64,000 nt of DNA. Origin: Fratercula arctica. Taxonomy: Eukaryota; Chordata; Aves; Charadriiformes; Alcidae. Both the position numbers and the translations under genes were made by a program. The stretch is taken from positions 9,484,100 through 9,548,099 of the forward strand of contig CANTUZ010000025.1 of assembly GCA_947846985.1 (NCBI GenBank). Direction: 5' to 3'. The notes beneath the pieces are model-generated. The model worked only from the letters and a program-made list of their open reading frames with translations, had not been told where the DNA came from and made no database searches. Position 1 is the stretch's first letter, and every line of letters begins with the position of its first letter. This document shows, piece by piece, positions 1,654 through 56,695 of the stretch.

Positions 1654-2523
1654 CCCTTCTGTGGTGGGACTGCTGAAGGTTAAAGAACAGCAGGTGCCAA
1701 TTGCTACTGCCATAGTGCATCAACTACAGTATCGCACTAAACGAGATTCCCATCCAGAACCTGATTCGTCAGCTGGAGACCCAAGGAGTGATCAGCAAGA
1801 CTTGCTCACCCTTTAACAGCCCTATATGGCCAGTGCAAAATCTGATGGAGACTGGCAGCTAACAGTAGACTATTGTGGCCTGAATGAAGTCACACCACCA
1901 CTGAGTGCTGCTGTGCCAGACATGCTAGAACTGCAGTATGAACTGGAGTCCAAGGCAGCCAAATGGTATGCTACAATTGACATTGCTAATGCATTCTTCT
2001 CTATTCCTTTAGCAGCAGAGTGCAGGCCACAGTTTGCTTTCACCTGGAGAGGCATCCAGTACACCTGGAATCGACTGCCCCAGGGGTGGAAACACAGCCC
2101 TACTATTTGCCATGGACTGATCCAGACTGCACTGGAGAAGGGTGGAGCTCCAGAACACCTGCAATACGCTGATGACATCATTGTGTGGGGTAATACAGCA
2201 GGAGAAGTTTTCAAGAAAGGTAAGAAAATAATCAAGATTCTTCTGAAGGCAGGTTTTGCCACAAAAAGAGGTAAGGTCAAGGGACCTGCATGAGACATCC
2301 AGTTCTTGGGAATTAAATGGCAAGATGGGCATCGTCAGATCCCAATGGATGTGATTTAACAAAATAACATCTATGTCCCCACCTACTAACCAAAAGGAAA
2401 CACAAGCCTTCTTAGGCATTGTGGGTTTCTGGAGACTGCATATTCCAGGCTATAGTCAGATTGTGAGACCTCTCTATGAAGTGACTCGAAAGAAAAATGA
2501 GTTTACGTGGGGTCCTGTGTTCT
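1654..2523 (+). pseudogene. ERV-L reverse transcriptase (fingers to connection), interrupted
   Basis: The best preserved part is 1826-2293. It has the finger/palm motif TVDYCGLNEV, the palm motif YATIDIANAFFSIPL, the LPQGWKHSPTICH motif, and the catalytic box LQYADDIIVWG at about 2160-2190. RT copies viral RNA into DNA, and the two Asp of YADD bind metal. A stop (TGA) at about 2291 and a frame change separate this from the connection segment at 2373-2520, which contains FLGIVGFWRLHIPGYSQIV. The coding sequence then stops abruptly at Trp-Gly-Pro-Val and continues at 10112 beyond the nested provirus. Confidence 0.85.
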
Positions 2524-2560
2524 CCAGTGGCTTCCCTGTTGTAACACTGTCACTATTTCT
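2524..2560. other. 37-bp stray segment of gamma-retroviral pol outside LTR-A
   Basis: These 37 bases sit between the interrupted ERV-L and the left LTR-A. They are identical to 17529-17565, the sequence left of the solo LTR-A in the gamma provirus. On the minus strand at that second site they encode an integrase N-terminal stretch (LQQGSHWG), so they are gamma pol sequence and not part of the LTR. The last six bases (ATTTCT) are the target duplication of the other insertion. The right LTR-A of this provirus lacks this flank. Confidence 0.85.
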
Positions 2561-2887
2561 TGTGGAGCATTGATTCACGGACTCTGGCAGGGTATGGACC
2601 AAAGACCTTTATTACAACAATTTCCCGAGTTTTATAGGTACAGGTACTCTCCACGCGCAGGCAGCATCCTGCTGATAGGTTGAAGGTCGATTGCCACGCA
2701 CTTCTCAGTGTCTTCTAACTGGTTGTCTCTGTCTGTTCACGCGGAGTAGCAGCTTTGCTTTTCACATTCCTTTCCTTGCTGATATCTCCTGACGCTTGCT
2801 TATCTTTTCTCTCAAGGCGCCTCTCAAGGATACAGCTTTGTCTCATCAAGGCCAAACAGATTCCCTACGCTACTCTCTATCTCCACA
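2561..2887 (-). repeat. LTR-A, 3' LTR of the nested beta-like provirus
   Basis: 327 bp, bounded by the inverted repeat TGTGGAG / CTCCACA. It matches 9787-10111 and 17566-17892. On the + strand TTTATT in 2607-2613 gives AATAAA on the minus strand, so polyadenylation would be in the minus direction. The internal side is flanked by a polypurine tract. Confidence 0.93.
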
Positions 2888-2911: not shown

Positions 2912-3711
2912 CAACAAAAGCTTGATTAATCATTTTTTGCACTATTTTCTGTTAGCAGCCTAAAATACAGAACATGACAAGCATTGGATGACAAAGATGA
3001 CGTTTAGAAAATTTAAAACATAAGTTGCTTTATACAATCGCTCTTGAGGTGTCATACCTACAGGATTCCCCCTTTTTTGTTTAGCAAGCATGGTTTTTAA
3101 AGTATGATGCATACGTTGCACAATTGCTTGCCCAGTTGGGGAATGAGGAATACCGGTGACATGTTTAATACCCCGTGTCTGTAAAGAGGCCTGTATTTTA
3201 GCGGACACATAAGCTGGTCTGTTATCAGTTTTTACAGTTTTCGGTACTCCCATGACTGCAAGGCATTGCAACTAATGTCGAATAACATCACGAGCCTTCT
3301 TTCCTGCATGAGCAGTAGCTACAACAAGGTGAGAAAACAGATCAACTGAAACATGTACATAGCGCAAACGTCCAAATCCCATAATGTGCGTAACCTCGGA
3401 TTGCCAAAGTTCATCAGGTGTAAGCCCTCATGGGTTAACCCCCGCAAATGATGGCAGAGGAGCCAGCTGCTGACAGCACAAACGACCCTGTGAAATCAAT
3501 CGTGCTAACATTTCAATCATCATAGTTACTGTTTTTGAAAAGGTGTGTGGCAAAAATACCCACTCTAATGCAGTCAGGCTCTTTGTGAGTGCATCATCCC
3601 ACTGTCCTATCAGGGCGTAAGGTTGAAATTCTTGATATATCATAAACAAATCTGCAATGTGCTGTAATGCCTTCTGAGCTGTTGGGGTTAATGAATGTGG
3701 AACCTACAGGG
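2912..3711 (-). pseudogene. Second pol fragment: RT connection fused to integrase, RNase H missing
   Basis: The 3428-3711 part reads as the RT connection (LEWVFLPHTFSKT) and then runs straight into the end of the integrase zinc domain (QQLAPLPSFAGVNP). About 600 bases coding RNase H and the start of integrase are therefore absent compared with 5400-6241. The integrase core follows at 2960-3400, with a frame break near 3271. Asp of KTDNRPAY is present, but the catalytic Glu is replaced by Gln in GQAIVQRMHHTLK. This piece ends close to the polypurine tract with no env. It is related to, but clearly different from, the integrase at 4552-5540. It is probably the remnant of the original LTR-A element. 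Confidence 0.82.
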
Positions 3712-4107
3712 GAGGGGGGGACAGACACAGTGCTTCAGGGCGTCCCCTGTATCTTCAAAGTGCACTCATGTCTATCCCCCTCTCTCTGACCCGAGACAGC
3801 CCCCTTATATCCTGCCCCGGATTGAGTGGAAAAGTACAGGCTAGGGTCGCTACATGCGTGGCCAGCGCATGCAGCGAGCCCCACCAGACTCATGATCCAG
3901 CTTTGCTAACTGCGGATGTCTGATACCTGACTACCTTGTACTCCCTCCTTGTTATCTTCTTCTTTGAAAGTTAGGTTCTCATGGATACACACATAGTTTT
4001 TGCAGCAACAGTACCAAGTCCCTTTTTCCCAACCTGTATACTGGGTTTGGTTCAACTAGGAATTTTCCATCATGTCTCACTCGGACCATCCTCTATTATC
4101 CCTTACA
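3712..4107 (-). repeat. LTR-B, U3 part only
   Basis: This segment matches about 41430-41802, the solo LTR in the CR1 element, with many small differences. Shared landmarks include the stretches around CCCCTTATATCCTGC and GGTTTGGTTCAACTAG. The outer edge ends CCTTACA at 4107. About 210 bp corresponding to 41217-41430, which carry the polyadenylation signal and U5, are absent. It is therefore a truncated 3' LTR of a different family, lying in the middle of the provirus. Confidence 0.82.
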
Positions 4108-4589
4108 CATGCCACCCCGTGGTCCGTAGTTGGGACACGACGATATTCTACAACTCGTACAAGGGTATGATGCAAAGCGGTATCTACAACTGATCGTATA
4201 ATGCTTATTAAACATGGCAAACAGCATACTAAACATAACAGACAAATTCCTTCCACACAGGCAATGAGTATAATTTGCTTCAACCAACCCCACCCCCAAG
4301 TCCATCCAGCAAAGAGATTTCACCCAGTGGTCTCCACAAGTTGCTGGCTCGGTCGGTGCAGTTCTTGCAACTGGGCATGGATGGATTTGGAGTGGTCACT
4401 TAGATTCATACAACACAGTCCTTTAAAATCTTGACAACCGTGTCCGTGAGCCCCTATACCGTAGTATGCGCCTCCCCTTTCAGACTGATGGTTAGTTGGC
4501 TCTCCAAAGATGCTGTGTTCAGACTTCCATAACTGCGTCCATGCCTGCTTACTAGGGTTCCGTAGACCGAACCAGGATAGCAGAGTCAT
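4108..4589 (-). pseudogene. Env transmembrane (TM) subunit remnant
   Basis: Only the end of env survives. On the minus strand a Cys-Cys segment ([15 protein letters not shown]) is followed by a short helical stretch, then a frame change and a hydrophobic anchor (about 4215-4285) with a Cys-rich cytoplasmic edge. The tail runs into the LTR-B U3. The surface subunit and fusion peptide are missing, because integrase is joined almost directly to this piece. TM normally anchors the envelope trimer and mediates membrane fusion. This stub lacks the parts needed and is broken by a frameshift. The betaretroviral assignment comes from its context. Confidence 0.65.
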
Positions 4590-5560
4590 TCAGTGCTTCT
4601 GGCTTTGTTGCTGCTTGTAGGGGCACACACACGGGGCCGGAACCCACCGAGGTCCCGTTCCCCTCATCTACTATTTCGTTTTCAGTAGTTTTATTCAACT
4701 CTTCTTGGCGATGACTCACTGCAGGTCGTACTAGCCGTGCCGGGACCCACCGGGTCCCGTTTCCTGTGGAAATACAAGCATACCCTCGACCCCAGGTGAT
4801 TAACTTAAATGGTCCTTCCCATTTTCCCGTAAGCAACGACTTTACCCATACATTTGCACAACTTTCGGGGTCAAGATTTATAAGCTTTTTTAAGGATATA
4901 AAGTGTCTTAATAAAACTGGTTCTTGCATGCTTTCATCTATCGTTAAGTGATTTAGTACGTATAAGGCTTTCTGTAACCGCGCCTGTGGGGGTTCCCCTA
5001 ACATTCCCTGGTTTTGTTTTTCTAGCATCTCTTTAAGTGTGCGATGTGCGTGTTCCACAATGCCTTGGCCTTGTGGGGAGTGGGGAATACCTGTGACGTG
5101 CTGCACCCCCCAAGTTTGTAAGAAGGTTTGAGTTTTGACTCCAGTATAACCAGGGCCGTTATCAGTTTTTATTTGGTGTGGAATGCCTAACATGGCGAAA
5201 GTGCCCCGCCAATGATGAATAACGTCACGGCTCTTTTCTCCCATTTCAGCAGTAGCCCAGAGAGCTCCCGAATAAGTATCGATGGAGACATGTATGTATT
5301 TTTGTCGGCCAAATTCGGGAACATGAGTGACATCGGTTTGCCATACTTGCAAGGCTTGCAAGCCTCGTGGGTTGACTCCCACCGGCTGCAGGGGAGCAAA
5401 CTGTTGGCATTCGGAACGTTTGCACAATTTCTCTCGATAATGACCAAGACAATTGGAATTGTTTACGCAACGCTCTTGCCGACTAATGAAAAAATGAATG
5501 AGACAATCGGGCTTGTTCTACCATCCTGGGAACTGGGGCAGACCAAGCTGGAGCAGCAAG
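4552..5560 (-). pseudogene. Beta-like integrase
   Basis: The main open frame is 4552-5427. The core contains all three catalytic residues: Asp in WQTDVTH, Asp in KTDNGPGY and Glu in GQGIVEHAHRTLK. The C-terminal domain has KWEGPFKLITWGRG. The N-terminal zinc domain is spread over other frames at about 5400-5560 (HSFFHQ is visible), so the gene is frameshifted. Integrase inserts viral DNA into the host genome. The reading frame continues about 100 codons past the core domain, and its end is a Thr/Asn-rich tail overlapping the start of the env remnant. Confidence 0.85.
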
Positions 5561-9786: not shown

Positions 9787-10111
9787 TGTGGAGCATTGGT
9801 TCACGGACTCCGGCAGGGTATGGACCAAAGACCTTTATTACAACAATTTCCCGAGTTTTATAGGTACAGGTACTCTCCACGTGCAGGCAGCATCCTGCTG
9901 ATAGGTTGAAGGTCGATTGCCACGCACTTCTCAGTGTCTTCTAACTGGTTGTCTCTGTCTGTTCACGCGGAGTAGCAGCTTTGCTTTTCACATTCCTTTC
10001 CTTGCTGATATCTCCTGACGCTTGCTTATCTTTTCTCTCAAGGCGCCTCTCAAGGATACAGCTTTGTCTCATCAAGGCCAAACAGATTCCCTATGCTACT
10101 CTATCTCCACA
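9787..10111 (-). repeat. LTR-A, 5' LTR of the nested beta-like provirus
   Basis: 325 bp with TGTGGAG / CTCCACA ends. It differs from 2561-2887 by 4 substitutions and a 2-bp deletion near the right end. ERV-L RNase H coding resumes immediately after it, at GGATCCTGAG. No matching 6-bp target duplication is seen at the left side of the provirus. Confidence 0.93.
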
Positions 10112-11000
10112 GGATCCTGAGCAACGACAAGCCTTTGAGCAAATTAAACAAGAGATTGTGCATGCAGTAGCCCTTGGACCAGTCCGAACAGGACAGGACA
10201 TTAAAAATGTGCTCTATACTGCAGCTGGAGACAATGGCCCTACCTGGAGCCTCTGGCAGAGAGCACCAGGGGAGACTCGAGGTCGACCCCTGGGATTCTG
10301 GAGTCGAGGCTATAAAGGCTCCGAGGCCAACTATACCCCAACTGAGAAAGAAATCTTGGCAGCCTATGAAGGAGTTAGAGCTGCTTCAGAAGTAATTGGT
10401 ACTGAAGCACAGCTCCTCCTGGCACCCCGATTACCAGTGCTGGGCTGGATGTTCAAGGGTAAAGTTCCTTCTACTCATCATGCCACCAATGCTACCTGGA
10501 GTAAGTGGGTTGCCTTAATCATGCAGCGAGCTCGAATAGGAAACCCCAATCGTCCAGGAATCGTGGAAGTGATCACAAACTGGCCCGAAGGCAAAGACTT
10601 CACAATGCCACCAGAGGAGGTGGTGACTCGTGCTAAGGAGGCCCCGCCATATAATGAACTCTCAGATAATGAGAAACAGTATGCCTTGCTCGCTGATGGA
10701 TCTTGTCAGATTGTAGGAAAACATCGAAGGTGGAAAGCTGCTGTATGGAGTCCTACATGACAGGTCACAGAAGCTGCTGAAGGACAAGGTGAATGGAATC
10801 AATTTGCAGAGGTAAAAGCCATCCAGCTGGCCCTAGACATTGCTGAATGAGAAAAGTGTCCAGTATCTCTACACTGACTCATGGATGGTGGCAAATGCTC
10901 TGTGGGGGTAGTTAAAGCAGTGGAAGCAGAGCAACTGGCAGCGCAGAGGTAAACCCATCTGGGCTGCTGAACTATGGCAAGATATTGCTGATTGTCTTGG
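10112..11000 (+). pseudogene. ERV-L connection and RNase H (resumes after insertion)
   Basis: The frame 10112-10760 continues the ERV-L RT connection with DPEQRQAFEQIKQEI and then LGFWSRGYKGSEANYTPTEK. The RNase H part follows (LLADGSCQIVG, about 10690). In-frame stops occur at 10758-10760 and several times in 10760-11000, so RNase H is decayed. Confidence 0.85.
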
Positions 11001-14053: not shown

Positions 14054-14575
14054 TGTGAGAAACGCTCCTTATCCAATAACAATGGCTCAGGCAGTGAATG
14101 ATACGAAGCACATTTTATTTGAACATTCTTGCAAGAACGGGTGACCTAGCAAGTAGGCACCCTTTTGGTTCTTGAAACACACCTTTTCATTTCCTAATCC
14201 CGGCCGAATTTTCCCTCCCCTGTTCCCCATTGGTTAGGTACTCCAGGGTTCACAGTCTGTCCGGAGCGCCTAAAATCCTTCCTGGATGTCTTGCCTCTGT
14301 TTACTTCTCCTTATGCTACACCTAAAGGGATTATCTGACTAGTTTATTTCTTTCCTTTTTGGTAGAATTGCTCAATGTCATTAGCCCTGATTAAATGTTT
14401 GACTACCCTTCTAGACACTAATCCAGTATGAATCAGTTTGTCCTTTTGTCTGTGTGATAAGAGATGTTCTACAAGCCTTTGCTGGAGCCTCTTTGTCTTA
14501 GTCATTCCCTTATCATGTCACCTCTGATGGAAACAGCTTTTTTCCTCTGCAAAAGCAATACCTGCCTTTCTTACA
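14054..14575 (-). repeat. LTR-C, 3' LTR of the gamma provirus
   Basis: 522 bp from TGTGAGAAACGC to CTTTCTTACA. TTTTATTT at about 14112 gives AATAAA on the minus strand. It is closely similar to 20590-21069 and 35697-36194. Confidence 0.93.
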
Positions 14576-14619: not shown

Positions 14620-15350
14620 CTAGGGCATGGTTCCATATGAGGCCTCTAGGGCCAACAGCATGATGTTACATTCTTCTTCTCGAGAGTTTTTATTTTCTTC
14701 TTCTTCTAGATGAAGCATTTTCCCAGGGTATGGGGGAGGGTCTACTTCCATTCGTTTTGTTAGGGCAGTTTCAATTAATCGTTGAACTAATCCTCGCACG
14801 CAGGGAATGATACAGCATCCTATAGCCACTAATACTCCTGCTACTATTATAAGAGAAGTCAATATTGATACCACCATACCTTTCCATTTCCCAAACCAGG
14901 AATCCAGCCAACCTGTCAGTGAGGTGTCTGTTCCGGAGTTCTCAGCTAACTCATCGGCTAGAGTGGTGAGCCCTTGAAGGGCTTTAGTTATAGTACCATC
15001 TGGAGCTGTATTGTATGGGATAAAGGTACAGCACCGATTCCCTAACATTACGCACACACCTCCCTTCTCTGCTAAGATCATGTCCAGGGCGATCCTATTT
15101 TCCCATGCCATTCAGCTGGTTGCATCCAATTGTTCTGCTATTCTTTTTAATGCATCTCTGGTATAATTAAACCTCTGTTGGTTATAGTGAATATAATTTA
15201 TTCAATCTACATTTTTGTTTATAGTTACCCACCAGAAAAAGACAGATTCGAAGCCTGCTCCTGTCTGATTCCTTGCTTTGTGTTCATCTGGGACCCCTCT
15301 AGGGACTCCAATGGGATCTATATATATATCCGTTCATCAAAGGATACACC
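14620..15350 (-). pseudogene. Env transmembrane subunit (gamma type)
   Basis: The open frame 14620-15111 encodes the conserved helix ENRIALDMILAEKGG and the Cys motif CVMLGNRCC (CX6CC), which in gamma-type Env links TM to SU. It then has a heptad-like stretch, a 25-residue hydrophobic anchor (about 14790-14870) with a Cys pair at its inner edge, and a tyrosine/proline-bearing tail ending at 14620. 15112-15350 still encodes the N-terminal part of TM but carries in-frame stops (for example near 15115 and 15180). The fusion-competent part is therefore broken. TM mediates membrane fusion in intact viruses; this copy is interrupted. Confidence 0.85.
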
Positions 15351-16469
15351 TCAACTTCCTTTTACTCTATTGCCTGAGCTCAGGGATCCTGTTTCTTTTT
15401 CAAATGCTAGGGTGAATGGTATTGCCAATTGTACTATTCCACATGTACCTTTCCAGTTAGCCGGCAACACAGATCGCAAAGTCCTCCCTCCACAATACCA
15501 CCAGAGATCTGCCCGAGGCACTCGTAACGCTGAGTAGTTTCCTCTTACATCCTTGGTCACATTCAGAGTTTCAGTGCACAGGGTAAATTCCCCCACAGGT
15601 TTGGCAGCATTCACACCCTGCCGTGAGAGGCACGCTGTATGGTTACCAGTTGCTGTGGAAAATACTGGTGGCACTTTAACATCTCTAGACTCGAAGGCAG
15701 GAAACAGTAAGGAAAGTGAATGACAAGTCTCATTTCCCCAGGTGGTCTTTTCTTGGTATAATGCTGTCATACACCACATCCCTACGAAATCTTTCGTCCA
15801 CCTTAAGGGAAAAGGGACGATCTGTGCTGTGGGCCTTCCTGTGGCACAAGCATAGCAATTGCTTTGGTTCAAACTATTAACAGTATATTTTACCCATTCT
15901 ACCCAAGCATTTGTCTCACCGTACCCTGTTTCAATCTCAAAGGTTTGTCTAAGATCTTCAATCTCAGTAACCGTTACCAAAGCTGGATCATTCAGTGGTT
16001 CCCACTGTTGTATTACTGGGAGTTTAGTAGTCATAGTTGTCCCTTCCGCTTGACTGCTATGTTCCAGTATGTCTATTCTAAATCTTCCCCTTGGATCTCT
16101 TCCAGACACATCTGCTCCTATTCCATATATTAGGTCACTTGATCCACCCATCATCAATGGTCCACCCTCCAATTTGGGTGGTCCACCACACTTCACTCCA
16201 TTGTTCACAAGATGCAGGCTCAGGATATCTGGATATCTCTCTGCGACCCTCCAAATTTCTGGGCACAGGTACTTGTTTTCGCCACTCAACTGTCTTTGGG
16301 CCTCTAGATCCCCACACTTCAGTACTTGACAGGCATCAAAGCGTATGGTCTGTGGGGTATCTGGATGTATACTCCGTAGGTGATCTGGGCGTACACTCCA
16401 GCTTCCTAGTGGGAAGCACACCACCACCCCTACGACAAGTATCATCGCAAAATGCTTCTTAAAATTCAT
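15351..16469 (-). pseudogene. Env surface subunit (gamma type), long open frame
   Basis: From ATG at 16469 the frame is open for about 372 codons to a stop at 15351. It starts with a basic N-terminus and a hydrophobic signal peptide (residues about 8-25). Many Cys and Asn-X-Ser/Thr glycosylation sites follow, which is typical of a receptor-binding surface protein. It is separated from TM by stops, so no full Env can be made. The start lies 54 bases after the integrase stop, and Env would normally come from a spliced RNA. The frame is better preserved than gag and pol of the same provirus. I cannot name the exact Env lineage. Confidence 0.82.
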
Positions 16470-16522
16470 GGCGTACACAGATTTATATCTCCCGACTGGA
16501 TCATCCTGCCCCAACCCACGGC

Positions 16523-17565
16523 TTATTGTCTCTTTAGGGTTACTCGCAGCAGGTTGTCAGTAGAATGTACAGTAAACTGTTCTACTGGATCTGTTGGTGG
16601 GGGTTCAACTGGTCCTTTTAGCCGAGTGTAGTGAGTCCAACCCCTGTTGGCCGTCCTCACTGCAGTCTCAGTGGTCAGTAACACTTGGAACGGGCCTTCC
16701 CATTCTGGTTGGAGCTTGGTTTCCTTCCAGGATTTGATCAAGACCCAGTCTCCTGGTCGGAAGGCATGGACTGCAAATTCCAATGGTGGAGTTTGGGCAA
16801 GAAGTCCTTTATTTCTGAGGAGAGATAAAGACGACGACAACCCCAGTATATAGTTCTTTAGAAACACATCTTTAGTTTCAAAAGTGGGCAAGTCTTCTCT
16901 GTTACCCATATAAGGTAGTTCAAAAAGCATCTCATAGAGCGAGACACCTGTATCTTTTCTAGGAGAAGTCCGGATCCTCAACAATGCTATTGGTAAACAT
17001 TTAGTCCATGGTAATTTGGTTTCTAAAATCAGTTTCGACAATTGTCTCTTAATGGTCTGGTTCATCCTCAACTTTTCCTGATGATGGGGGATGCCAGGGG
17101 GCATGAAATTCCCACACTATCCCTAAACTTTCCATAATTCCTTGAAGGATTTTAGAAGTAAAATGACTGCCCTGATCTGCCCTGATTCTCCACTAACCCG
17201 TATCTGGGAATAATTTGTTCTAGTATTATCTTAATTACCCCTGCTGCAGTAGCTGACACCAAGGGGTAGGCTTCCATCCATCCAGTAAGATGGTCCACTA
17301 GGACTAAAAGATATTTTAGCCTGCCTATTGGTGGTAGTTCAGTGAAGTCTACCTGTATACTTTGGAACGGTCTCAAGCCAGGCTCTCTTCCTCCTGAAGA
17401 TTGCTTTCTCAAGGCTTTCTTGTTTACTTTCTTACAAATAATACGTCCCTCACAAATTTATTTGGCTATTGTGTATATGCCAAAGCATCTGTACTTCCAC
17501 AAAACTATTCGCACATTGCTTGCGTTCCCCAGTGGCTTCCCTGTTGTAACACTGTCACTATTTCT
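16523..17565 (-). pseudogene. Gamma-like integrase, split by a solo LTR
   Basis: The N-terminal part abuts the solo LTR-A at 17566, where LQQGSHWG is visible with a following stop. The core part 17152-17412 has Asp in VDFTELPPIG. The second catalytic region is disrupted by an exact 10-bp tandem duplication (17167-17186). A small deletion follows the Glu codon (GKVE) near 17070. The C-terminal part 16523-17104 contains LQPEWEGPFQVLLTTETAVR and runs to the stop before env. Confidence 0.87.
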
Positions 17566-17892
17566 TGTGGAGCATTGATTCACGGACTCTGGCAGGGTAT
17601 GGACCAAAGACCTTTATTACAACGATTTTCCGAGTTTTATAGGTACAGGTACTCTCCACGTGCAGGCAGCATCCTGCTGATAGGCTGAAGGTCAATTGCC
17701 ACGCGCTTCTCAGTGTCTTCCGATTGGTCATCTCTGTCTGTTCACGCGGAGTAGCAGCTTTGCTTTTCACATTCCTTTCCTTGCTGATATCTCCTGACGC
17801 TTGCTTATCTTTTCTCTCAAGGCGCCTCTCAAGGATACAGCTTTGTCTCATCAAGGCCAAACAGATTCCCTATGCTACTCTCTATCTCCACA
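17566..17892 (-). repeat. Solo LTR-A inserted in the gamma integrase
   Basis: 327 bp with TGTGGAG / CTCCACA ends and a perfect 6-bp target duplication ATTTCT (17560-17565 and 17893-17898). It is about 3% different from the two LTR-A copies at 2561 and 9787. A solo LTR forms when the two LTRs of a provirus recombine. Confidence 0.95.
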
Positions 17893-18720
17893 ATTTCTCT
17901 CATTGTTTGTTGACCGTTTCCCTTCCATCAGGCAGAATCCATTTACCACATTTCTCCACTGCCCCTGCTTCTGTCATTGCTTCTCCTGCCCCAAGGCCAC
18001 CTCTTTTGCCACCTTGTCCGCTAATCTATTTCCCCTTGCAGTAATTGAATTGCCTCTCTGGTGGCCTTTAACATGTAAAACTGCTATTTCACTTGGTATT
18101 AATATATTAGCTAACACCTGCTTTATAAGCTCTTCATGTACAAGTTCTTTCCCTTTGCTATTTATTAGTCCTTGTTCTTCCCAAATTTTACCAAAGGTAT
18201 GCACTACCCCAAAGGCATAACGAGAGTCTGTATAAATTGTTCCTTCCCCTTTCTCCAATTAATTTAAGTGCCTGGTTTAAGGCATACATCTCACATGTTT
18301 GAGCGGACCATGCACTAGGGAATTTTTCAGATGCTTTTACTTGTTGACTCACTCCATCCACCACTGCATATCCATTACGCCTCTTTCCTTCTATCACTCT
18401 TGAACCGTCTACAAACAAATGAAGACTCCCAGATAGGGGTTCTTCCCTTAAGTCAGGTCGCATCTTAGTCTGGTACTCAATTACATCTAAGCATTCGTGT
18501 GTAAGTACTTCATCCTTTGCCTCTACTTTTCCTTTCCACAAAAAGCTCACTGGGTTAAGGCAAGAGCTGGTAGTTAAAATCAAATCATCCTTTTCAATTA
18601 AAATTGCTTCATACTTCAGTATTCTTGAATCGGTTAGCCGTTTTCCCGTGGTTTGGGCTAAAATGGTTTTTACTTGGTGAGGGGTGCTAACTTCTGTCAT
18701 TCCCCTGGCCACCCTCAGGA
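17893..18720 (-). pseudogene. Gamma-like RNase H
   Basis: Two frames, 18188-18712 and 17974-18258, cover the domain. Catalytic Asp appears in LFVDGSRVIEG, Glu in TCEMYALNQAL and Asp in YTDSRYAFGVV. The C-terminal GHQRGNSITARGNRLADKVA closes the domain. One frameshift near 18250 separates the two frames. The last codons run into the solo LTR-A. Confidence 0.88.
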
Positions 18721-19400
18721 GACCAGATCTAAGAGTTTAGATAATAGGCCACTGGCTGCCGCTTATCCCCCCCTACTCTTGAGTTCCTAACGCAGCCCCT
18801 TTGTCTACAGTTACAAATAGTTGAAAAGATTTCTCCAAAGAAGATAAGGCTAAAACTGGAGCTCTGATTAGGCTCTGTTTTAAATCTTCCACTAAATCCT
18901 CCTCTTCTTCTGTCCAAACCAATACATTCGGTTCTTCAGCTAACAGTTTGGAATATAGTCCTTTAGTCTTTTGAGCATACCCCTCTATCCACAGTCTACA
19001 GTACCCAGTCAGCCACAAAAATTTTCTCAGTTCCCTCTTGGTCTTTGGCAGAGGTAAGTCTACTATTCCTTTGATCCTCTCAGGATTTATAGGATTTATT
19101 TTTCGACTCCCTTCACTGACTAGATGTCCCAAGTACTTCACTTCTGTTTCCACATATTGCAATTATATGGTGGTTTTTTGGTCTTTTTTGAGACCCTCAA
19201 ACCTTGCTGTCCCAAAAAGTTCAATAACTCATTCGTGGCTTCTTTTACCCTGCCTTCTTCCTCCCCAGATACCAGTAAGTCATCCACATACTGAAGCAGG
19301 GCTACTCCCCGATGGAGGTTTGAATTGTTCAAGCACTTGTTCTAACACTTGCCCAAACAAATTAGGGGATTCTGTAAATCCCACAATGATAACACCCTAC
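18721..19400 (-). pseudogene. Gamma-like reverse transcriptase, N-terminus deleted
   Basis: The sequence starts abruptly near 19390 at GFTESPNLFGQ. The catalytic box is ALLQYVDDLLVSG (about 19270-19300), and the thumb/connection (YLGHLVSEGSRKINPINPER) lies in 18773-19162. A frame break sits near 19160. The fingers and half of the palm are missing, because the frame is joined to gag sequence at about 19400. Confidence 0.87.
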
Positions 19401-20150
19401 CAGTGAACCTTGAGCTGCTGGTAGGAGTGGTCGGGGCAGTCCTCTTCCCCGTCCTCTTCCCCTGTTATTCACCCCTCTTCCTCGCCCCCAAGTAACAGTC
19501 TAAGGGGTCCCACTTCAGGGCTTCAACTTCTTTGTCGGTTGAAACATCACCGACAGTCTGGGCTGGGAACATATAAAATGGATTCGGGCGTCCCCGAATC
19601 CTGAATCTATTCATCTTGACCCAGCAAAAAGCATATTCACCTTCTTCTAATTCCTTATTATTCCTTATTATTCACATACGTGTTTAAAGTCTGACAGACC
19701 CAGTCTTCATCAGATCCAAATTTGGGCCAAAACACACTAGGAGGTCTTATGGGTTCTTTGGTCCAAACAAATTCAAATGCAAATGCAAACATGTCCCCCC
19801 TGGGACACCCCGAAGATCTCCCGTGATGGACACGGGACCCCCGGGATGTCCCCAGGATGCCCCCTCCGGACACCCCTGGGATCCTCTAAGACAGACGCAG
19901 GACCCCCTAGGACACCCCTGGGACCCCCCCCCAGGATGTCCACGGGCCCCCTCCCCCGGCCACCCCCGGCCCCTCCGGGATGCGGTCCGAACAAAACAAA
20001 TCATTTTCTTTTTATCTTTATCCCTTGTACAAGAAGAATCATTCTGAAACCTCAACATTCTCCCCTAAAGGACTGTCTGGGGAAATGTTCCCGGGGTCTT
20101 TCTTATTATCCCCTTTTTCATCCCTAGGCCTAGAATTCTTTATTTCCCAT
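19401..20150 (-). pseudogene. Gamma-like gag, matrix region only
   Basis: ATG at 20148-20150 gives Met-Gly-Asn-Lys, a myristoylation-type start, with a stop three codons later and frameshifts after that. The matrix core FVWTKEPIRPPSVFWPKFGS lies at about 19700-19770 and runs on to about 19500. A GC-rich 224-bp insertion splits it (19772-19995). Near 19400 the sequence changes to RT, so capsid, nucleocapsid and protease are deleted. Confidence 0.8.
19772..19995. repeat. GC-rich insertion with short repeated units in gag
   Basis: The insertion lies between two near-identical copies of GGTCCRAACAAA (19760-19771 and 19984-19995). It consists of loosely repeated GGGACACCCC/GGATGTCC units, very rich in C on the + strand. 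It is out of frame and interrupts matrix between CFV and FVWTK. It could be a slippage-generated minisatellite or captured GC-rich DNA. Confidence 0.7.
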
Positions 20151-20568
20151 TCTAAACAGAGACTTTTTACACCTCTTCCTTTCGCTTCGTCCTTCTCTGG
20201 CTGTGCCCCTTGTGGGACTACAGAACCGCGGATTCAGACTCCACACTCACTTCGTACCGCAGTACGTCTCAGTCACTCACACACACCAAGTCTCTTGGAA
20301 TGTCCCCGACCACCAAGGTAATACTTTAACAATCCGATTTTTCTTACCTTGGTCCGTGCATGGAGTTGCCTGGTCGTAATCTCTGTGCCTACTGCATTAA
20401 ATTCATTTTTCTCCCTTTGTGGTTCATATGGTCTGCCGCTTAACAAGTCTCGGGATCCTAGTCGATTCCCTTCGGAGCCCCAGGCGACGATACACGAGAC
20501 CGTTGAAATCAACGGGACTCGTCTTCCCGTCCTTCAGCAACAAGGAACCCCAGAGGGGATGACTTCGC
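20151..20568 (-). other. Gamma provirus leader (between primer site and gag)
   Basis: About 420 bp without a supported gene. In retroviruses this region holds the packaging signal and splice donor. A donor cannot be fixed from sequence alone. Confidence 0.5.
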
Positions 20569-20586
20569 ATCCCGGATGAGCCCCCA
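20569..20586 (-). promoter_or_regulatory. Primer binding site, proline tRNA
   Basis: The minus strand reads TGGGGGCTCATCCGGGAT, three bases after the LTR end. It matches the classical proline-tRNA primer site of gammaretroviruses with one change (A in place of G at position 11). Confidence 0.93.
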
Positions 20587-20589
20587 AAT

Positions 20590-21069
20590 TGTGAGAAACG
20601 CTCCTTATCCAATAACAATGGCTCAGGCAGTGAATGATACGAAGCACATTTTATTTGGACATTCTTGCAAGAACGGGTGACCTAGGAAGTAGGCACCCTT
20701 TAGGTTCTTGAAACACACCTTTTCATTTCCTAATCCCCGGCTGAATTTTCCCTCCCCTGTTTCCCATTGGTTAGGTACTCCGGGGTTCACAGTCTGTCTG
20801 AAGCGCCTAAAATCCCTAAAGGGATTATCTGACTAGTTTATTTCTTTCCTTTTTGGTAGAATTGCTCAATGTCATTAGCCCTGGTTAAATGTTTGACTAC
20901 CCTTCTAGACACTAATCCAGTATGAATCAGTTTGTCCTTTTGTCTGTGTGATAAGAGATGTTCTACAAGCCTTTGCTGGAGCCTCTTTGTCTTAGTCATT
21001 CCCTTATCATGTCACCTCTGATGGAAACGGCTTTTCTCCTCTGGAAAAACAATACCTGCCTTTCTTACA
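20590..21069 (-). repeat. LTR-C, 5' LTR of the gamma provirus
   Basis: 480 bp from TGTGAGAAACG to TTTCTTACA, followed by the duplicated GATG. Compared with the 3' LTR it lacks a block of about 42 bp (14281-14325 region) and has roughly a dozen substitutions. Confidence 0.93.
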
Positions 21070-22600: not shown

Positions 22601-23180
22601 CAATGTACTGTTGAGATTTAACAAACATGACTATTGAAGTCATGTGACCTACAATAAACCCATTGGCTACTTTTCAAGCATATTTGTACATTACTACGTT
22701 ACAGTTAATAGCATTTTCAATAATATACCAAGGGGGTTGAAATATTTGAAGGAAAAATACAGCTGTATTCTGGGGTTTATGTGAAACTGTGAGTATATAT
22801 GTGGCTATACTTTAATTGTTGTTTGCATCAAAGTTTAATATAACATATTCAAATACCCTGTTTGGGTGGAGGTTGTTAGGTTTTTTTTCCCAGATGTGTG
22901 TGTTCTCCCAGTTCCTGGTAACTGAAAGTTAGGGAGCATAAGGCACAATGGAGCAGCAGCTGCTGGGATGACCATGAACATAAGACATCAAACGCCTGAT
23001 ACATGATCAATTGTTTCAGCAATTCGGATAGAATATGTGCAATTATTAAATTAGGAAGCTGAGCTGCTTATGCCCGAGGAAACATTTGTCATTCGGGATT
23101 GAATTTGTCTGGGTAACTGACATGCCCCTGCAGAAGACAAACTATAACAAAAACACGGGGGGAAAACAGCGACACCTGTA
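22601..23180. other. Upstream flank of the CpG island, no gene seen
   Basis: AT-rich sequence without a recognisable feature. The base composition changes sharply to GC-rich at about 23180. Confidence 0.55.
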
Positions 23181-41216: not shown

Positions 41217-41802
41217 CGTAACAGGTTCTTTTTTTAAAGATTCCAATGGACAAACCAGAGCTCACACAAGGAAAAAAAATTAACTCGGCTTTATTGTGAA
41301 GCCTTGCTAAGCAGTTCCCAAAAGTTACTTGAGAGTCTTACCAACCCATAGATCGTAGTAGTACCGCTGAGCAGCAGGATAACGAGGAGCCACATTGAGT
41401 GCAGCAGAGGAAGGTAGGCACAGCACCTTCAGGGCATCCCCTGTATCTTCAAAGTGCACTTATGTCTCTCTCCCTCTCTGTTGTGAGACAGCCCCCTTAT
41501 ATCCTGCACCGGATTGAGTGGAAAAGTACGGGCTAGAGTTGCTGCACGTGTGGCCAGCGCATGCAGTGAGCCCCACCAGGCTCATGATCTGGCTTTGCTA
41601 ACAGTGGCTTTCTGATACGCGACTACATTGTTGCACTCCCTTCTTGTTGTTTTCTTCTTTGAAGGTCAGGTTCTCATGGATACGCACGTAGTTTTTGCAG
41701 CAACAGTACTGAGGTCCTTTTTCTCGGCACGTATACTGGGTTTGGTTCAACTAGTAATTTTCCATCATGTCTCACTCGGACCATCCTCTATTATCCCTTA
41801 CA
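41217..41802 (-). repeat. Solo LTR-B inserted in the CR1 endonuclease
   Basis: About 586 bp interrupt CR1 ORF2. The right end CCTTACA matches the LTR-B U3 end at 4107, and the left end GTAACAGG is a partly decayed inverted partner. TTTATTGTG at about 41291 gives AATAAA on the minus strand. CR1 resumes at AGGAGCC, and the left flank GAGGAG is an imperfect duplication. The U3 part (41430-41802) aligns with 3712-4107. Confidence 0.85.
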
Positions 41803-55398: not shown

Positions 55399-56695
55399 TA
55401 TACTCTGCGTATGTTGAAGTGGAGTCTGCTAAATGTGTCTGAAAGACTTTTTTTTGCACTTGGAGAAGAAAGTTTCCTGTCACCAATCCAGAAGTTGAAA
55501 TATAATTTCTGCAATTTAAAATACGCACTTTTTTAAACCCAATTTTTTTTGATGTGGAGCATTGGCAGTTTGACTAAGAAAATAAATATTCAGTGCTGTT
55601 TTGGAAAAGAATGTATTTTTAGACCAATTTCCGGAGGAAATGGCGCTTACATGATCACATTGTCTGTCTGCACATGTTGGTCCTTCCTGAAAAATTGAGC
55701 CTGTCATTTGATTTCAGCCAAACTTGAAACTTGAGGTAACATTTTGAAGATGATTAGCAATCAATTTTTACAAAATTTAGAAACAATTAGAGGAAAGAGA
55801 CCTAAATTTGTGCTCTTCCTGAGGAGAAAGGAGGCAGAACGTGGCTGGTGTACATGGTCAGTAATCAGCTAGCCAGTTTGCACCATTTAGATTTGCTCCG
55901 TCCTGCGGAGGAGGAATGTTATAGAAGCCATGGAGAGTAGAGGGGACTGTTGTAACAATGATTGAGTTTAGAGGAAGATACATTTCCATAGCAAGGTGAA
56001 ATTTCAGTAGTTCCAGTGTGCACAGGAAGACTGTGTTGAAGTTTTCCAAATTGAACGTAATTGCAAAAATTGAAGGAACTTCTTTATCCGCGTACTCGGA
56101 AACCTTTCCTTTTAAACTGTAGATAGAAGAGTTGGTAGAAACCATGCTGGTTCTTTGTGTTGTGTTCTGTCTTAAGGGATTTGAAATTAAGGTATGTGAA
56201 TTTAATCTTATTTATCAACAAAAAAATTTAGATTTCCTATAGCTAAATTTTAATACTCTGTAGAGGGTGAATTTTGTTATATTAAGCAGAAATATCCCAA
56301 TAACCTTTGTAAAAGTAAGGATAAGCTATGTTGTAAAAACACAATTGACACTTCAGAACTGCTGCTTCAAAATTTTCTGCTTTTCTGTATTGTAGGGCTG
56401 TGTTGGGTGACCAGTTTACAGGCTAAATTTTTACTTCATCCTCTGGGATCTGTAGTTGTCTTAACCACGGTTACTACCACTACAGATCTGTTGTGTTTAA
56501 AAGAAAATAAATAAACTCCCCCCCCCCCCCCCCATATATGTGTATACATATATATACATACACACACACATATATGCAGGTATGTATATGCTTCTTTAAG
56601 TATTTATCAGCCAGGGTAAGTTTGAGAAGCTGCCCACATAAGTATTTCTGAAGTTGTCTTGTTGGTTTTTAAGTCAACCAATTTCTGTTTTACAG
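55399..56695. other. End of ERBIN intron 1
   Basis: Non-coding. It contains a composite microsatellite, a run of about 15 C followed by AT/GT/AC dinucleotides, at about 56518-56575. A pyrimidine-rich acceptor tract lies just before 56696. Confidence 0.6.

Follow-up and report, generated by a model that had tools for sequence, protein, structure and literature searches.

At the left edge of a beta-like LTR-A provirus lies a short stretch of another retrovirus. Between the first base of the left LTR and the ERV-L element that surrounds the provirus are 37 bp that are identical, base for base, to the flank of a solo LTR-A inside a gamma-like provirus 15 kb away, including the ATTTCT target-site duplication of that solo LTR (Table 1). 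This transplanted flank, first described in an earlier note on the same DNA, is real. It probably arose by one-sided gene conversion from the lineage of the solo LTR, which overran the LTR into its flank and was end-joined at the border of the recipient's own target-site duplication. The mechanism is already known; the present example is a clean one.

Table 1. Features of the recipient and donor-type loci (positions within the window)
Feature	Position	Strand	Remarks
ERV-L pol, left piece	2300..2515	+	ERV-L is the label of the earlier note; matches extend over 2410-2523; reverse-transcriptase match at 1817-2290
Left 6-bp target-site duplication, GGGTCC	2510..2515		partner GGATCC at 10112-10117
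Putative repair joint, TGTGTTCT	2516..2523		TGTG as at the start of the LTR, or donor TGCGTTCC changed at two positions
Patch, probably copied	2524..2560		exactly 17529-17565; ends in the donor's ATTTCT duplication
Left LTR-A (3' LTR) of the beta-like provirus	2561..2887	-	
Right LTR-A (5' LTR)	9787..10111	-	changes at the equivalents of 2573 and 2585; 2-bp deletion
Right target-site duplication, GGATCC (one change)	10112..10117		5 of 6 against GGGTCC
ERV-L pol, right piece	10112..10757	+	Pfam RT_RNaseH_2 from profile position 3; LTR/ERV-L junction search
Shared gamma-like tract with the solo LTR-A inside it	14711..20671	-	5.96 kb, 99.9% against C25:9577214-9583174
Donor-type flank	17521..17565	-	has the RNase H match of the gamma-like provirus on one side and its integrase-core match on the other
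Solo LTR-A	17566..17892	-	ATTTCT on both sides (17560-17565, 17893-17898)

Setting and scope

The window, by which we mean the whole stretch of 64,000 nucleotides that was analysed (C25:9484100-9548099, forward strand), belongs to a contig of 28.4 Mb in a genome of 1.21 Gb in 28 contigs. Genome searches score the best candidates only; for positions 2516-2620 these are the best 40 of 298, and 32 of the 40 lie on C25. Judging by its size and retroelement load, C25 is probably the bird W chromosome. Pfam finds domains of reverse transcriptase, RNase H, integrase and Gag in the window. Such domains alone assign no class, and we keep the labels of the earlier note: ERV-L, beta-like and gamma. Rfam at gathering thresholds gave no matches in the window; searches of viral and prokaryote collections, with one LTR pattern each, gave no hits.

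In the LTR-A provirus a second integrase-like stretch, diverged and broken, occupies 2963-3484 and is 51% identical to the provirus's own at 4555-5517, and a segment before the 3' LTR (3733-4107) is shared with 41427-41802 (87%). All or most of this layout recurs beside LTR-A at L004, L005, L006 and L008 and is therefore not a local accident.

The patch and its likely source

A search for the 37-mer that tolerated up to three mismatches gave two occurrences in the window, whereas 100 shuffled sequences gave none. The likeness to the solo locus extends into the LTR: an ungapped alignment of 375 bp joins 2516-2890 to 17521-17895 at 96% identity, with the LTR start TGTGGAG at both 2561 and 17566, and within it 95 bases (2524-2618; the 37 outside the LTR and the first 58 bp of the LTR) are identical, so that the shared joint includes ATTTCT. 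In the outward direction a weak likeness reaches back to 2516, where TGTGTTCT stands opposite TGCGTTCC in the donor-type flank. This gives a patch length of 37 to 45 bp, with a match to the donor flank beyond the shared homology of 37 in 37 or 43 in 45 positions.

The earlier note had called these bases integrase coding sequence of the gamma provirus. They are in frame with an integrase-core match at the solo locus, downstream of an RNase H match above the Pfam cut-off; the integrase match itself is weak (28.6 bits, against a cut-off of 32.6). The gamma-like provirus has LTR-like repeats at 14054-14575 and 20590-21069. That the patch separates ERV-L from a different provirus is borne out by its left neighbor, which is another reverse-transcriptase element.

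Among the best 40 of 298 candidates, the joint of flank, ATTTCT and LTR-A was found at three places: the left edge in the window, the solo locus, and C25:9580024, which belongs to a 99.94% copy of the solo locus 78 kb away. At L005 the match reaches part of the flank at 89%. This extension is accidental, because the flank there is ERV-L with a duplication of its own, GTATCT, which recurs at the far end of the provirus in question (L017/L028). The remaining 36 of the 40 scored matches are LTRs with at most eight flank bases. The idea that the 37 bp accompany LTR-A insertions generally and form part of the element, which the earlier note had raised against its own reading, was rejected, the whole flank being confined to 3 of the 40 scored matches (itself, the solo locus and its copy).

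A genome search with the gamma-like stretch 17460-17565 gave 28 matches, namely the solo locus, its copy, the patch and 25 others. All but one of these 25 run through the site without an LTR-A, and the alignment of the exception, L066, ends before the site. The 37 bases are matched in full by L064 as well, a gamma-like copy that has no LTR. Because 24 of the 25 copies are empty of LTR-A and, on the donor side, the joint to LTR-A with ATTTCT is confined to the solo locus and its copy among the matches scored, the sequence comparisons point to the solo-LTR lineage (the solo locus, its 99.94% copy, or their ancestor) as the most likely source. The nearby locus that the earlier note had proposed is thus one representative of the sole donor type among the scored matches; the two present copies are identical across the patch and hence indistinguishable as sources. 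Other candidates were set aside: L066, a gamma-like copy with TGTGTTCTCC, differs elsewhere and its alignment ends before the LTR site, the second TGTGTTCTCC at 22899 aligns over the 10-mer only, and an LTR-start-like 12-mer at 55553 over the 12-mer only.

A probable longer exchange at the donor-type locus

The copy of the solo locus (C25:9577204-9583174) differs from it at eight of 5,971 bases, and three of the eight fall within the first ten. Beyond the shared tract the two proviruses diverge: their left LTRs are 78% alike, and their right LTRs part after 82 bases (the copy's right LTR aligned over about 140 bases only). These 82 bases are 98.8% identical to the other LTR of the window provirus, against 89% between the copy's own two LTRs, which makes the window locus the likelier donor of the tract. 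As the LTRs of the copy lack the mutual likeness of a fresh, reverse-transcribed insertion, the comparison favors a long ectopic gene conversion tract as the origin of the 5.96-kb sharing.

The recipient site

The LTR-A provirus entered ERV-L normally, and only its left edge is abnormal. The earlier note had found no 6-bp target duplication joining the two sides and had taken this as support for conversion. The claim does not hold, and the argument falls with it: GGGTCC on the left is matched at 5 of 6 positions by GGATCC on the right, and on all 20 fetched ERV-L copies the left and right pieces overlap by exactly 6 bp if the left piece is cut at 2515 (8 bp if it is cut at 2517, since TG comes next in both). 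The right piece aligns weakly on one of the 20, L048. The provirus is absent at this site in 20 of 20 copies, L048 turning dissimilar shortly past it, and GGGTCC is present at the site in 19 of the 20. It is this duplication, joining both sides, that speaks for normal entry.

On the left, the sequence of 2410-2523 is matched at 94-100% by the best 40 of 912 candidates; the 54-residue ERV-L piece that adjoins the patch gave no Pfam family. On the right, the LTR/ERV-L junction occurs at one place among the best 40 of 1255 candidates; a duplicate of the ERV-L/provirus locus that lacks the patch was thus not found among them, and this junction lies outside the 6-kb copy of the solo locus.

The ordinary form of an LTR-A insertion, TGTGGAG...CTCCACA directly between 6-bp duplications, is seen on the right side and not on the left, where 45 extra bp intervene. 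Perfect 6-bp duplications flank 8 of the 10 other LTR-A insertions for which both outer flanks were read, the solo LTRs at 17566, L019, L026, L094 and L101 and the proviruses L021/L029, L017/L028 and L098/L099; the exceptions are the solo LTRs L022, with 5 bp, and L100, with none. Since these eight insertions abut their duplications directly, extra sequence at the LTR edge is abnormal. L100 (C25:23698253-23698383), an LTR-A without matching 6-bp flanks, is possibly an ectopic recombinant in its own right.

The joint

The 45 extra bases between GGGTCC and TGTGGAG consist of TGTGTTCT followed by the 37. They can be read in three ways: as 45 donor bases with two C-to-T differences, as the LTR letters TGTG plus 41 donor bases with one difference, or as TGTG, four added bases (TTCT) and 37 donor bases. 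Both mismatches to the donor (2518 and 2523) fall in the 8 bp at the joint and none in the other 37; for two differences placed at random in 45 bases, our own arithmetic gives a chance of about 0.03. Such crowding is as expected of rough end-joining. The microhomology at the joint is imperfect, TGTG against TGCG (3 of 4). Variation of the donor is a possible source of the two differences, because among the 25 other gamma-like copies 4 have T at the first of these bases and 2 have it at the second.

These observations also bear on an explanation by assembly error, in which sequence from the solo locus, as reads or contigs, would have been fused with the left edge of the LTR. The LTR is highly repeated (298 candidates), and the donor is only 15 kb away and itself duplicated, circumstances in which a mis-merge is conceivable. 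We nevertheless regard it as improbable, as the target duplication is preserved at the join, the window is without any N, and the two bases of the joint are never found together with the donor core in the gamma-like copies read; a mis-merge would not make them.

Comparison of LTR-A copies

The earlier note numbered the left, right and solo LTRs as copies 1, 2 and 3, and took the agreement of copies 1 and 3 against copy 2 at 2573 and 2585 as a sign of conversion. All of 30 other copies read A and T at these positions, as copies 1 and 3 do, leaving the right LTR as the odd one out; 20 of the 30 were retrieved by likeness to copy 1 and are biased accordingly, and 10 by a query that does not cover the two sites. 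In a control search with copy 2's own edge, nothing above 98% was found besides itself (best 40 of 291 candidates); copy 1, which differs from that edge at 2573 and 2585 only, is among the 98% matches. The two changes are thus, by these comparisons, most likely private to copy 2, an alternative that the earlier note itself had mentioned, and we discarded the sites as markers of conversion.

The identity of copies 1 and 3 over 2561-2618 is weak evidence for copying at best. Among ten unselected copies the number of differences from copy 1 in these 58 bp is 0 to 2, and it is 0 in two; because these two share the sequence of donor and recipient, the identity says little. Every state of the left LTR recurs among 20 other copies, which over its first 60 bases are a set retrieved by similarity to it. 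Ten positions separate the solo LTR from both proviral LTRs. All of them lie in 2619-2725, and in this part the solo LTR is similar, at 6 to 8 differences, to another set of LTR-A copies, for whose retrieval its own sequence had served. In 2726-2887 it differs from the left LTR at one position and from the right LTR at none. The solo LTR may itself be a mosaic, its ten differences being confined to the 107 bases at 17624-17730 and the rest almost identical. In an LTR tree of 22 rows, from which the truncated L032 was left out, the left, right and solo LTRs fall together in no resolved order, and the tree gives no order of events.

The ten differences imply that any exchange stopped within the 58 bp or predates them; copied LTR sequence, if there is any, ends before 2619, provided that the donor then had its present bases. 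Of the tract proposed earlier, at about 60-100 bp, what is shown is 37-45 bp of flank, to which some amount of LTR would be added.

The LTR comparison is also relevant to the idea that the extra bases came in with the virus, on a DNA end lengthened by a 45-bp copy of the flank of a former provirus at the gamma site, the CA-closing end being the one that integrase joined to ERV-L. The patch does lie flush after the 6-bp duplication, and a unit that includes its 45 bp starts with TG and ends with CA like a normal insertion, as it would with the donor's TGCG. The near identity of the three LTRs in 2726-2887 fits as well. It is the tRNA primer site, however, that fixes the U5 end of a retrovirus, and flank downstream of it should therefore not be retained; by eye, moreover, the donor flank past the patch is unlike the primer-site region at the right LTR. 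In addition, the solo LTR is nearer to other copies (the nearest retrieved by likeness) than to the two proviral LTRs in 2619-2725, and the ends of eight of the ten other insertions are clean. We consider such a carried flank unlikely. Its specific form, in which a read-through transcript with 45 bp of parental flank was reverse-transcribed to an extended U5 end and integrase used the CA of the flank, flush with the 6-bp duplication, is less likely still and stands level with an assembly error.

A model of one-sided copying

Together, our data suggest a model. It starts from what the sequence shows, namely the identity of the patch, the rarity of the donor joint, the target duplication and the continuity of ERV-L, and we infer from these the break, the direction of synthesis and the end-joining step. 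The LTR-A provirus entered ERV-L pol in the ordinary way, making the GGGTCC duplication. Either at some later time or while the gaps left by its integration were being repaired, a break would have occurred at the left edge of the LTR or a few bases from it. The end on the LTR side may then have invaded another LTR-A, either the solo LTR in the gamma-like provirus, its copy 78 kb further, or their ancestor, and synthesis would have proceeded outward through the LTR start and the donor ATTTCT into 37-45 bp of donor flank. Having no homology to end on, the new end would have been rejoined, by microhomology or with a few added bases, to the ERV-L end that held GGGTCC and perhaps the LTR letters TGTG. 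It speaks in favor of the model that the donor locus apparently took part in another conversion, that of the 5.96-kb tract. It speaks against it that no site within the LTR reveals copying and that the joint lies exactly at the border of target duplication and LTR, which is unexpected for random breakage, although a break during gap repair of a fresh insertion may perhaps account for the position.

Discussion

The steps of the model have precedents. In sequenced clones, rejoining after one-sided copying was reported to involve microhomology or added bases (PMC5104497). The non-canonical termination of gene conversion described in that source resembles our case in that one side is homologous (here the LTR), the other is joined with poor homology, and the template is a related locus; that system relies on a reporter in mouse cells and has tracts of kilobases, whereas the scar described here is a natural one, 37-45 bp long, at the edge of an LTR.

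The nearest published parallel that we found is that of the HERV-K K111/K222 recombinants, in which the LTR of one provirus is likewise combined with the target duplication and flank of another (PMC4425911). These were read as true crossovers, with longer flanks and in pericentromeres. At our site the foreign flank does not continue outward, as it would after a crossover of that type, but stops after 37-45 bp, where ERV-L resumes with the original target duplication outside the patch. The same account, as an example of ectopic exchange between proviruses, lends some plausibility to two successive exchanges, a crossover between the LTR and the solo LTR followed by a deletion or re-exchange that left 37-45 bp. 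This needs two events, the second of which would have to restore ERV-L exactly at the target duplication, and both ERV-L sides and the duplication are present; we hold it to be the most improbable of the alternatives.

One-sided conversion also resembles the ectopic gene conversion between LTR retroelements that is said to bias age estimates (PMC7251063), in that LTR homology guides copying between elements. It differs in that the tract at our site continues beyond the border of the LTR into flank without homology, and it is this overrun that allows the donor to be identified. Conversion between LTRs is mostly invisible because the sequences are alike; an overrun past the LTR makes donor, recipient and order of events readable. 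Here the order is that the gamma-like provirus already contained LTR-A when the patch arose. The patch and the nearby 5.96-kb tract speak for an exchange of sequence among proviruses on C25, and such exchange can bias both the dating of proviruses by LTR divergence and the calling of recombinant proviruses by their target duplications.
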